Under the pieces are notes generated by a model. That model ran no database searches. It saw only the letters and a program-made list of their open reading frames with translations, and was not told the DNA's origin. From Fibrobacter sp. UWB2 (GTDB taxonomy: Bacteria > Fibrobacterota > Fibrobacteria > Fibrobacterales > Fibrobacteraceae): a stretch of 64,000 nt of DNA. The stretch covers positions 310,001 through 374,000 of the forward strand of contig NZ_MWQK01000005.1 of NCBI RefSeq assembly GCF_002210425.1, written 5' to 3'. Both the position numbers and the translations under genes were made by a program. This document shows, in pieces, positions 1,105 to 47,389 of this stretch. How positions within the stretch are numbered: position 1 is the first letter of the stretch; each line of letters opens with the position of its first letter.

Positions 1105-2217
1105 ATGCCCGAAATAAAGAGCCTGGCGGCCAAAAATCATTCCATTGAACTCGTAAGAATCATTGCGTGCTTGCTTGTCATCATGGCACATAGCCAGCTC
1201 AGCGTTGTCGAAGAAAACGCCATTGTCAGCGGAAGACTCGCATTTTCAACCATTATCGCAGACGATGTTCCGCTATTTTTATTGGTGACCGGGTTCTTTC
1301 TCTTTGGGCGCATCAAATCCGACGCCGACATTATCCCGACTTTTCCCTACAAGGCAAAATCATTTCTCTCACGCGTTTACATCCCGACCCTCGTCTATAT
1401 CCTAATTAGCATTTTCTATCGCCACTTCACAGAGACGCAATTGCCTACTTCAAGTCTCGATTGGGATTATTTATGGCGTTTTATTTTCAGGCTCGCGCCA
1501 GGTGACCATCTGTGGTACATTTGTACTTACATGTCCTTCATTTTCTTTTTCCCTATGCTAGCGTTTGTCTGTCAAGACAACCCACAAAAGAACAAATTAA
1601 GGCGCACTTTACTTGCCATCGCCATTGCAGGCGCTGTAGTTAGCGACATTCAGTATTTTTTCAAGATGAGTATGTTTGAGCTCGACAAATTCCTTTGGGG
1701 TTACTGCACCATATTCCTCATTCTCGGGTACGAACTTTCGCTATTCATCCGCAAGTTTGACGATCGACAGAAAAAGCTTTTAGCGATGGGAATCGCAATT
1801 TACTTACTTGGATTTTTGATAAAGTTTGGACTGCAGAATTATATGTTCAGCCATTACGGATATGTCGACAACAAATTCCGTTGGCTCCAAAGCTCGCTAT
1901 GTTTTGTGACAGCAACGGGAATGTTCATGACCGTGTATGCACTCGGCACATGGATTAAGCAAAACAGCATCATCGCACGCATCATCAATTACATCGGTTC
2001 CTGCACATTTGCAATTTATCTTTTCCATATGCTAGTCCTTAACAGCACCTGGAACTTCCGCGGAATGCTTTGGAGAAACTTTCATTACACAATGACGCTT
2101 CCGAACATCACAGCATATTACATTGTCAATTCACTAGCGGTATTTGGCATAACGCTAGCGATTGCGATTGTTTTTAAATACGTTGTCGAAAAGCCCGTTG
2201 CAAAACTATTTAAATAA
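1105..2217 (+). CDS. Acyltransferase family 3 membrane protein
   Basis: This 370-residue protein has about ten hydrophobic helices. It opens with the family-typical pattern IELVRIIACLLVIMAHSQ (conserved R and H in helix 1), then VPLFLLVTGFFLFG, DHLWYICTYMSFIFFFPML, and a late helix with FAIYLFHMLVL. These features fit the acyltransferase 3 family, inner-membrane enzymes that acylate polysaccharides or other surface molecules; the acceptor is unknown. The start is fixed by a strong Shine-Dalgarno sequence (GGAGAAGGAG) 5 bp before the ATG. The gene is divergent from the partial family member at 1-987, so the two may be alternative modifying enzymes from one locus. A hairpin follows the stop codon. 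Family assignment is firm, function is not. Confidence 0.85.
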   Translation: MPEIKSLAAKNHSIELVRIIACLLVIMAHSQLSVVEENAIVSGRLAFSTIIADDVPLFLLVTGFFLFGRIKSDADIIPTFPYKAKSFLSRVYIPTLVYILISIFYRHFTETQLPTSSLDWDYLWRFIFRLAPGDHLWYICTYMSFIFFFPMLAFVCQDNPQKNKLRRTLLAIAIAGAVVSDIQYFFKMSMFELDKFLWGYCTIFLILGYELSLFIRKFDDRQKKLLAMGIAIYLLGFLIKFGLQNYMFSHYGYVDNKFRWLQSSLCFVTATGMFMTVYALGTWIKQNSIIARIINYIGSCTFAIYLFHMLVLNSTWNFRGMLWRNFHYTMTLPNITAYYIVNSLAVFGITLAIAIVFKYVVEKPVAKLFK

Positions 2218-2268: not shown

Positions 2269-3615
2269 CTAGCAATACAAAGCTTCTACAAGCTTAATCA
2301 TGTCTTCGTGGTCGCTTGCGGCCATCATCTCGCGGATGCTGTGCATGCTGAGCATGGGCTCGCCGATATCGACCGTCGGGATTCCGAGATTTGCAGAAAC
2401 CGTCGGACCGACCGTCGAGCCGCAAGGCATGTCGTTTCGCATAATGAAAACTTGAAGTGGAATTCCCGCTTTTTCACAAAGCAAACGGAGCTGAGCAGAG
2501 CTCATCAGGTCACTCGCGTAACGCTTTTGTGAGTTTGTCTTGAGTACAATGCCCTTGCCCAACAGCGGAGCGTGATTCGGCTCGTGCTTTTCCGTGTGGT
2601 TCGGATGCTCGGCATGCGCCATGTCGATAGAGAGCGCGATGGACTCTGCAAGGTACGAAGTAAGAGGTCGGGCATGTCCCTTTGATGTAAAGGTTTCATG
2701 GATCCTATCGGGGCTTTGCCCCTCCAGGATGACATCCCTAACATTGTCATTCTGGAGCGAAGCGATAGAATCCAACACACTTTTCAAGAAGTTACCGGCA
2801 GCTCCTTCGCGCGTGTTGGAACCGACTTCTTCGTTGTTAAAGAAACACGCAACAAGGCAATCGTTTTCAGCGGATGTCGCAGACACCATCGCTTCGGCAA
2901 TGGCATGGCAGCTGCTCAAATTATCGAGCCTTCCAGAATAAATCCATTCGTCGTTAAAGCCGCCGCGATTTGCGGGCTGGGCATCAAATAGCTGCACGTC
3001 AAAATCAATCAATCGAGCGCCTTCCGGGAGTTCCTTTTCAAGCGCCTTCACAAACAAGTTCTTGCGGTTTTCAGAAGCACTACTGCCCGAGGCACCCGTC
3101 CACAACGCATTGAAATCTACCTGCGGATTCACCTTGAGGCCGTCCTGATTCACACCACGGTTCAGGTGGACCGCCAACTGCGGAATCCTGAAAAGTTTAT
3201 CACCGCGGAACAGTTTCGTCTTGAGCGTATTCGACTTGTCCGCCGAATCTACATACGCAAGCATCCCCGCATAGCCAAGGTCGCGATCAAGCCAGCTCGT
3301 GTAAAGCGGAGAACCGTAAACCTCCGTATGGAGCGTGCACACACCCGCATTCACGCCATCTGGATTCGGGGAAATCTTGAGCGTCGGGAAGTCCGTATGC
3401 GCAAGCGCAATCCTGAACTTCGACGTGTCACACCACTGTTTTGGCGTACGGAACGCAATGACCGAACCTTCGCGGCACACGAAATAGGCTTTTGCGGGTT
3501 CAAAATTTGCTGCGAGCCCGATTTCTGCAAAAGAATTTGCCTTAAAAAACGACTTCAAAGCGTCTACGGTATGGTACGGCGTTACAGCAGTATTCAAAAA
3601 ATCAAAAAATTCCAT
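2269..3615 (-). CDS. apeB: M18 family aminopeptidase (aspartyl aminopeptidase type)
   Basis: M18 enzymes are cytoplasmic di-zinc aminopeptidases that release N-terminal, often acidic, residues. All the expected ligands are visible: H in IALAHTDFP, D in SGRLDNLS, EE in FFNNEEVGS, D in ALSIDMAHA and H in LSMHSIREM. The long frame could begin at 3645, but an AGGAA sequence lies 5 bp before the ATG at 3615 and the protein then starts MEFFDFLNTAVTPYHTVD, as in the family; this gives 448 residues, slightly longer than usual. The excess lies between the EE and SID motifs, where the residues LDSIASLQNDN and DVILEGQSPDR are encoded by a repeat element (2699-2774). The gene is divergent from the MCE gene with 66 bp between starts. 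Confidence 0.9.
   Translation of the reverse strand: MEFFDFLNTAVTPYHTVDALKSFFKANSFAEIGLAANFEPAKAYFVCREGSVIAFRTPKQWCDTSKFRIALAHTDFPTLKISPNPDGVNAGVCTLHTEVYGSPLYTSWLDRDLGYAGMLAYVDSADKSNTLKTKLFRGDKLFRIPQLAVHLNRGVNQDGLKVNPQVDFNALWTGASGSSASENRKNLFVKALEKELPEGARLIDFDVQLFDAQPANRGGFNDEWIYSGRLDNLSSCHAIAEAMVSATSAENDCLVACFFNNEEVGSNTREGAAGNFLKSVLDSIASLQNDNVRDVILEGQSPDRIHETFTSKGHARPLTSYLAESIALSIDMAHAEHPNHTEKHEPNHAPLLGKGIVLKTNSQKRYASDLMSSAQLRLLCEKAGIPLQVFIMRNDMPCGSTVGPTVSANLGIPTVDIGEPMLSMHSIREMMAASDHEDMIKLVEALYC
2699..2774 (-). repeat. REP-like inverted repeat read in frame inside the M18 gene
   Basis: The stretch begins TGGATCCTATCG and ends CGATAGAATCCA, which are inverted copies of each other. The inner parts (GGGGCTTTGCCCC, CCAGGATGACAT, ATTGTCATTCTGG) match the intergenic repeat at 19585-19636, which reads GGATCC, then CTATCGCTACGCTCCAGG, then AGGATGACAC. 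Read on the minus strand it adds about 25 codons in frame without a stop. It lies between two conserved M18 motifs, in a region that is shorter in familiar M18 proteins, so it looks like an insertion tolerated as a surface loop. Confidence 0.75.
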
Positions 3616-19413: not shown

Positions 19414-19715
19414 TTTCTATCCACTTTAAATATTCAACTACTTTTTACACATTCATTTTAACAAATCAATATACAAAAATTCGTTTTTCCTACAAAAAAG
19501 GCGATGCCGCAACAAGTGCGGCATGACCGTGTTGTAAGAATGTGTATGCGAATGCCCGCGCGGCGGCGGGCATGACAATTCACTGGATCCTTCGACTTCC
19601 CCTATCGCTACGCTCCAGGGTTCGCTCAGGATGACACATTGCAAAGCAGTTCACTTCGGCGGGCTCAGTGAACTTGAAGCGCCCCCGGAACAAGTCCGGG
19701 GTGACAACGCAAGAT
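19414..19715. repeat. Gene-free stretch carrying an array of four REP-like hairpins
   Basis: No gene is seen here. The units are GATGCCGC...GCGGCATGAC (19503-19527), AATGCCCGC...GCGGGCATGAC (19551-19577), GGATCCTTCGAC...CAGGATGACAC (19585-19636) and GCCCCCGGAAC...TCCGGGGTGAC (19681-19708). Each is an imperfect inverted repeat ending in (G)ATGAC or GTGAC. The first 80 bp are AT-rich and include the upstream region of the lipoprotein gene. The array lies after the DinG gene stop and could protect or terminate its transcript. Confidence 0.7.
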
Positions 19716-39069: not shown

Positions 39070-39509
39070 AAAATTCCTCCCTTGTCGCTGCAAACCGACA
39101 AGAAAACAAATATCCAAAGTAAATATAAATAATGATTCGAACAAAATTAAATAAGAGATTTTGCCGACAGCCCATCCCAACCAAATGCAAGTTCATCTAT
39201 GTTTAAAATTTTCAAAGATGAATTTATATAAAATTTCTTATAACTTTAAGATGCATTGTCCAAGTAGATGACAGCATGTATAAAAGCAAAGACAAAGGCG
39301 AAGCCGTCCCCATCCGCGGATCATGACCACATAAGAGCTAAAGCTCTAAGTGGTCAAAGACAACAAGTGCGGCATGACAGAGCAATAAACAAAATTTAAC
39401 CGGATCCTTCACCCTTTGGGTTCAGGATGACGTCAAAAAGGCGATGCCCGCTTAGTGGCGGGCATGACAAAGTGCAACCGGCTATCAACTAATAACCAAT
39501 GACTAACAG
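39070..39509. repeat. 440-bp gene-free stretch: AT-rich segment plus REP-like hairpins
   Basis: No gene is seen. The part next to the lipoprotein gene is AT-rich and must hold its promoter. Then come a 31-bp hairpin GACCAC...GTGGTC with inner AGAGCT/AGCTCT (39325-39355), a half unit AAGTGCGGCATGAC (39366-39378), GGATCCTTCACCCTTTGGG with TTCAGGATGAC (39402-39431), and GATGCCCGC...GCGGGCATGAC (39443-39468). These match the families at 19503-19636 and 47288-47389. They lie downstream of the dacB stop. Confidence 0.65.
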
Positions 39510-47287: not shown

Positions 47288-47389
47288 GGATCCTTCAGTC
47301 ACTTCGTTCCTTCAGGATGACGAATGCGGAATGACATGCACATTCAGGATGACGAGATGGCGATTCCCGCTCGGTGGCGGGAATGACAC
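47288..47389. repeat. Pair of REP-like hairpins
   Basis: GGATCCTTCAG...CCTTCAGGATGACG (47288-47321) and GATTCCCGC...GCGGGAATGACAC (47362-47389) match the two repeat families seen at 19503-19636 and 39402-39468. They lie between the start of the nitronate monooxygenase-like gene and the stop of the ComEC-like gene. Confidence 0.7.

Follow-up and report, generated by a model that had tools for sequence, protein, structure and literature searches.

The 76-bp segment at positions 2699–2774 of a 64,000-nucleotide stretch of the genome of Fibrobacter sp. UWB2 (the window) consists of two REP-type repeat units joined head to head, and lies in frame within an intact gene for an M18 aminopeptidase; the repeat is TGTC-tagged, forms hairpins, and is dispersed in the genome. 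It is very probable that such REP units are mobile DNA that enters permissive loops, is translated there as a tolerated linker, and is then turned over and exchanged between species.

Table 1. Repeat units and associated features in the window (positions counted from its first letter).
Feature	Positions	Strand	Basis or description
M18 aminopeptidase CDS (aspartyl aminopeptidase-like), insert-bearing	2269..3615	(-)	ORF; Pfam PF02127 E=1.8e-109
In-frame palindromic insert, head-to-head REP dimer encoding LDSIASLQNDNVRDVILEGQSPDRI	2699..2774	(-)	
REP unit 1, 36 bp: TGTCATCCTGGAGGGGCAAAGCCCCGATAGGATCCA	2699..2734	(-)	TGTC head inward, CCA tail outward
10-bp spacer separating both heads	2735..2744		
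REP unit 2, 30 bp: TGTCATTCTGGAGCGAAGCGATAGAATCCA	2745..2774	(+)	
Remaining variable M18 loop and start of next conserved block (HETFTSKGHARPLTSYLAESIALSID...)	2623..2698	(-)	
Intergenic composite REP	19582..19638	(+)	Sister-family ends TGGATCCTTCGACTT...CGCTCAGGATGACA, M18-type repeat core piece nested inside

The insert is built from a hairpin repeat of 30–38 bp with the form TGTCATYCTGGAG-X-CGATAGRATCCA, present in two facing copies. Read on the plus strand, its layout is TGGATCCTATCGGGGCTTTGCCCCTCCAGGATGACA-TCCCTAACAT-TGTCATTCTGGAGCGAAGCGATAGAATCCA. The minus strand reads TGGATTCTATCGCTTCGCTCCAGAATGACA-ATGTTAGGGA-TGTCATCCTGGAGGGGCAAAGCCCCGATAGGATCCA, in which the TGTC heads of the two units, both of one repeat, face inward. 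The terminal 12 bp are inverted repeats in which 11 of 12 bases match. The 76-nt insert strand folds with z = -4.9 relative to shuffles, and 0 matches to the insert motif are expected by chance in shuffles of the window. No known RNA family was found over the insert, a sub-threshold tfoR match being present nearby only. The encoded peptide, LDSIASLQNDNVRDVILEGQSPDRI, occupies residues 280–304 (about 25 residues) of a 447-residue translation that begins one residue past the likely ATG, and lies between the NNEE active-site motif and the SIDMAH motif, with the catalytic residues of both invariant. An earlier reading of the letters alone (the original prediction) had proposed a REP-like element with inverted ends, in frame on the coding strand between two conserved motifs, and the analysis bears this out.

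The host gene is, as judged from its sequence, otherwise intact and functional. It is a 458-codon minus-strand ORF with the likely ATG at 3613–3615 and the stop at 2269; the Peptidase_M18 profile and the metal and active-site motifs are present, H72, D74, D230, E261, E262, D330, and H424 being invariant in the alignment. In the comparison of the core with the nearest relative, dS is 0.59, dN is 0.036, and dN/dS is 0.06; the enzyme is thus under purifying selection while bearing the insert. This ratio and the absence of stops rule out a pseudogene, and an assembly artefact is ruled out by the occurrence of the insert in an independent assembly (L099). The insert is presumably translated into protein. 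An AlphaFold2 model made from a 27-sequence alignment (pTM 0.81) has pLDDT below 50 at residues 289–313, and the insert is predicted to be a disordered loop following a helix. Convergent with the M18 gene is an ORF at 1105–2217 (+) for a multi-pass membrane acyltransferase-like protein, and an intergenic TGTC hairpin lies directly 3' of it.

The repeat is dispersed in the genome. Searched with the segment, the genome (3.53 Mb in 15 contigs) yielded 16 places, counting the segment itself; the 15 others are arm matches at E<=0.01, and the closest of them agrees with REP unit 1 at 35 of 35 nt and lies within tilS (G000:C1:143791). Genome-wide numbers rest on a sample of 20 stretches together with searches. 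Stem analysis was carried out on 17 distinct units, all from the same genome, which have in common a TGTC head, a CCA tail, and a two-part stem consisting of a 5-bp outer part, an internal loop, and an inner stem of 2–6 bp. The unpaired CCA tail is found in 17/17 units, as is the TGTC head, the latter partly by construction because the head was in the search pattern. Stem position 1 is A-T in 14 of the 17, and position 2 is T-A in 13 and C-G in 4. The sequence of the stem varies while its pairing is kept: the base occurs as ATCCT/AGGAT, ATTCT/AGAAT, ACTCT/AGAGT, or ACCCT/AGGGT, and the inner stem as GGGGC/GCCCC, GGCAC/GTGCC, or GGGTTC/GAACCC. In the 17-unit alignment 93.3% of cells are paired and 28 cells are altered on both sides, a level of pairing reached by 0 of 500 shuffles, and slid partners pair at 28–44%. 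Chance similarity is ruled out by the dispersed genomic copies, the shuffles (0 expected), and the stem covariation. In M18 and CobA the units stand head-to-head and in tilS they stand tail-to-tail, with singles elsewhere. The original prediction had also matched the inner sequences of the insert to an intergenic repeat at 19585–19636; this match is right in part, since a piece of the repeat core does lie there, but the outer ends are those of a sister family. This composite suggests exchange of a unit within a unit. Between genes of the window there are also TGTC-tagged hairpins of other families, at 2216–2248, 39437–39469, 47356–47388, and 19684–19706 (GCCCGC..GCGGGCATGACA, CCCGG..CCGGG).

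M18 was present in 49 of 49 Fibrobacter genomes searched, and 31 loci were taken from named records; the comparison set includes many MAGs, and G044, G046 (9–10 contigs), and G000 are of high quality. Since MAFFT aligns the loop without leaving gapped columns, the M18 inserts were judged by direct inspection and by a concatenated-query search. From the NFL(K/R)S helix to LSIDMAH there are 16–31 residues in most orthologues versus 50 here, and 31–54 residues in most other orthologues with recognisable repeats. The nearest solved relative, Pseudomonas M18 aminopeptidase 2 (3wt4, ApeB of Pseudomonas aeruginosa), has about 11 residues where UWB2 has 38 (residues 283–320). The element is thus absent as such from most orthologues and from ApeB, and the segment was not found in distant M18 homologues that do not carry the repeat elsewhere. 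These lengths bear on a rival view, in which the M18 loop is ancient, native, and functional and the segment resembles an intergenic repeat by chance or convergence. The VLDS(I) codons beside the insert do occur in species without the repeat. The codons L-D-S-I come from the complement of the CCA tail of REP unit 2, and CTGGATTCT is present at the same codons in the non-repeat species L037 and L039, and TGGATTCTATCG in L041, so that part of the insert "tail" may be native sequence. A native loop is nevertheless scarcely credible for the segment, which holds two complete units in a palindromic array (0 expected in shuffles); the dispersed copy identical over 35 nt and the existence of insert-free orthologues jointly refute it.

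In other Fibrobacter species, the same loop holds other repeat families. SLRSAQND is found at the loop position in L022, L029, and L113, and HPGVREHDRAQ in L019 and L020; the loop of L021 has FDLAQDD and VILEGQSPNRI, that of L024 has TSLRGNAEAIS and KVGEPVGP, and that of L034 has KVGEPVEP. Some loops carry satellite-like NSEFRTPNS or LSSRLSSS stretches. The concatenated inserts of L024, L029, and L019 matched 16–34 places per genome in 8 Fibrobacter genomes, which indicates that in those genomes, too, the three tested inserts belong to dispersed repeats. Units also appear to have been swapped within the clade of the host species: L021 keeps the right unit next to a left unit of the sister family, L023 keeps the right unit alone, and L019 and L020 have a different right unit. 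In the M18 tree, differing inserts are scattered across clades.

The M18 gene is not the only one affected, as the original prediction had proposed looking for. Searches and sampled stretches revealed the same or sister repeats in frame in TilS (five units), a CobA-HemD fusion, L-asparaginase (three units), and a U32 peptidase, as well as in the Ser-rich linker of a Fib_succ_major lipoprotein. The asparaginase, U32, and lipoprotein cases come from 18 stretches that were not selected by hits and that cover a tenth of the genome (360 kb), and from these three cases a rough estimate is that a few dozen genes per genome carry in-gene repeats. The insert-free TilS of G003 and G005 reads KALQEAAENCDAIVTAHHAG, and the asparaginase frame is 308 aa long in G008 and G013 versus 383 in UWB2. 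Insert runs of orthologues matched repeats of the UWB2 genome more often than core segments of the same length did, in TilS (51% vs 11%) and in CobA-HemD (58% vs 7%), and with a weaker contrast in asparaginase (40% vs 14%) and U32 (22% vs 9%). These sequence comparisons support recurrent, genus-wide insertion of repeats of several families into at least five genes. In a Fib_succ_major lipoprotein at L082:14631-15842 (minus strand), the linker peptides IIPASSANR, DAGTESGMT, and VIPASSGNL look repeat-encoded, and one of them fits the regex for the GCGGGAATC family.

Several repeat-bearing loops are younger than the genes around them. In three species pairs the DNA of the M18 loop is 97–99% identical and flanking third positions are 54–66% identical. 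Third-position differences number 3/50 in the loop versus 55/160 in the flank for L017/L018 (p=2e-5), 3/45 versus 74/160 for L029/L113 (p=2e-7), and 1/25 versus 59/160 for L019/L020 (p=4e-4); a fourth pair, L025/L108, has a weaker contrast (p=0.011). As the pairs were chosen after inspection, these p-values are descriptive. No such excess was found in M18 loops without a repeat (p 0.19–0.84), and no clear one in satellite-like NSEFRTPNS loops (p 0.08–0.25). The loop part of the sequence that follows the insert (2623–2698) is likewise almost identical in the sister species, and a similar contrast is seen in TilS (GVAGLASEAPLEGVMEDRATG) and CobA-HemD (DERTLVNSLQTKDE). The DNA of the TilS insert GVAGLASEAPLEGVMEDRATG is 93–100% identical among L138, L149, L151, L153, and L154, with tilS third positions at 46–63%. 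Near-identical loops in diverged flanks indicate that the loops moved recently, and the simplest reading is that this probably occurred by short-tract recombination between species. A leader of about 45 codons located 5' of the likely CobA-HemD start is also near-identical across species (L160; L161, L171, L175) while the gene has diverged; no Rfam family matches it, and it is possibly a regulatory leader.

Two other readings of the near-identical loops have to be weighed. That one repeat was inserted independently at a favoured site, with no transfer of the loop, would fit the common end sequence TGGATTCT at the target codons; this is unlikely, since the non-repeat remainder of the loop is also identical in L029/L113 and L017/L018, and an identical stretch that takes in non-repeat codons points to transfer of the loop as a block. 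Alternatively, the insert may have been domesticated, a selected function (regulation, oligomer contacts, or an mRNA hairpin) explaining both the kept frame and the near-identical loop DNA. The conservation of the loop far above its flanks in the three pairs and the strong hairpin are consistent with such a function, yet elsewhere the loop is replaced wholesale by unrelated families or satellite-like sequence, or the linker is short, the insert residues are predicted to be disordered, and unrelated enzymes behave alike, which leaves domestication quite improbable.

As for how the units get into genes, MITEs are marked by terminal inverted repeats together with a target-site duplication. The insert has 12-bp inverted ends, and inspection of L033/L034 and other loci gave no clean empty site from which a duplication could be read; insertion may have been by transposition, or by recombination or slippage. 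The repeats could have been moved by a RAYT, as is thought for GTAG-REPs, that was supplied earlier or by relatives. The occurrence of the hairpin units as dimers and of Y1 transposase genes in 16 of 50 Fibrobacter genomes would agree with this, but the UWB2 genome (99.99% complete) has 0 matches to PF01797 (Y1/RAYT), the tag is TGTC and not GTAG, and CGTC repeats have been reported without a dedicated transposase (PMC3733652). None of 12 Y1 loci in relatives is closely flanked by the repeats, one unit of any family lying 1.1 kb off. With its own genome free of a Y1 transposase and the Y1 loci of relatives not flanked by these repeats, a RAYT is given a low probability as the agent.

The best-known in-gene palindromic repeats are those of Rickettsia, an obligate intracellular bacterium. 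The Rickettsia palindromic elements (RPEs; Ogata et al. 2000, reviewed in PMC2229807 and PMC10969869) resemble the Fibrobacter repeats, as originally proposed, in being palindromic, dispersed, and in frame in many unrelated housekeeping genes that tolerate the extra residues. In-frame insertion in conserved genes, by which RPEs are recognised, is found for M18, TilS, CobA-HemD, asparaginase, and the U32 peptidase. RPEs are about 105–150 bp long and specific to Rickettsia, whereas the Fibrobacter units are 30–38 bp, the dimer 76 bp; unlike RPEs, several families entered the same loops in different species, and the host is a gut bacterium. The CGTC/TGTC-tagged REPs (Di Nocera et al. 2013, PMC3733652) are similar in the TGTC head variant, the CCA tail, the presence of some copies in coding regions, and the lack of a dedicated transposase. 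Their complementary A-T pairs at stem positions 1 and 2 and their predominantly head-to-head dimers are found in part of the Fibrobacter units. Families 1–4 of that study have an 8–9 bp stem and a 4–5 nt loop, in contrast to the two-part Fibrobacter stem (5 bp, internal loop, 2–6 bp), and because of this difference the Fibrobacter unit is placed in none of the four published CGTC families. Use of about the same site by related species is described there for recB of two Xanthomonas only, and Fibrobacter is not mentioned. GTAG-REPs with RAYTs (summarised in PMC3733652) are also short hairpins and often dimers, with a different tag and with a RAYT/Y1 gene that the UWB2 genome lacks. ERIC/RU-1 and Correia elements in ORFs (PMC2229807) are likewise small open-frame repeats fused to genes; they differ as MITEs with TSDs, IS-like ends, and lengths of about 100–200 bp. 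A word and sequence-string search of the literature found no description of in-gene repeats or REPs in Fibrobacter, in keeping with the original prediction, nor was a description found of genus-wide shared hot-spots of in-gene REPs. In-gene REPs are already known; what sets the present case apart is that hot-spots span the genus and involve several families, and that loops appear to be exchanged.

Based on these comparisons, REP units would behave as small, non-autonomous mobile DNA that gets into genes. Insertions into coding sequence would mostly be lost, and the survivors would be stop-free, frame-keeping units in permissive surface loops, persisting as a tolerated, translated, disordered linker, by which selfish DNA would become protein. 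An entered loop would keep changing, as units are exchanged for sister-family units that share the end sequence and as linker residues are lost, and whole loops may pass between species via short-tract homologous recombination. A broader and more tentative proposal is that the same surface loops of essential enzymes are undergoing continuing, genus-wide colonisation by several unrelated palindromic families, the loops serving as exchangeable cassettes traded via very short recombination tracts for which the repeats possibly supply the homology.

Annotators should be aware that SLRSAQND, VILEGQSPDRI, and KVGEPVEP in Fibrobacter enzymes are repeat-derived, and the multi-family hot-spots and apparent loop exchange merit a dedicated survey. 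In these rumen and gut bacteria, the short palindromic repeats are normally intergenic. Within enzymes, however, one and the same loop is occupied by different repeats from species to species, so that the repeats would keep supplying new protein sequence. Fibrobacter, a free-living gut genus, comprises dozens of species, and its several repeat families and five or more shared loop hot-spots offer replicate natural experiments on the passage of selfish DNA into protein: which loops are permissive, at what rate the insert turns over, and by what route it spreads.
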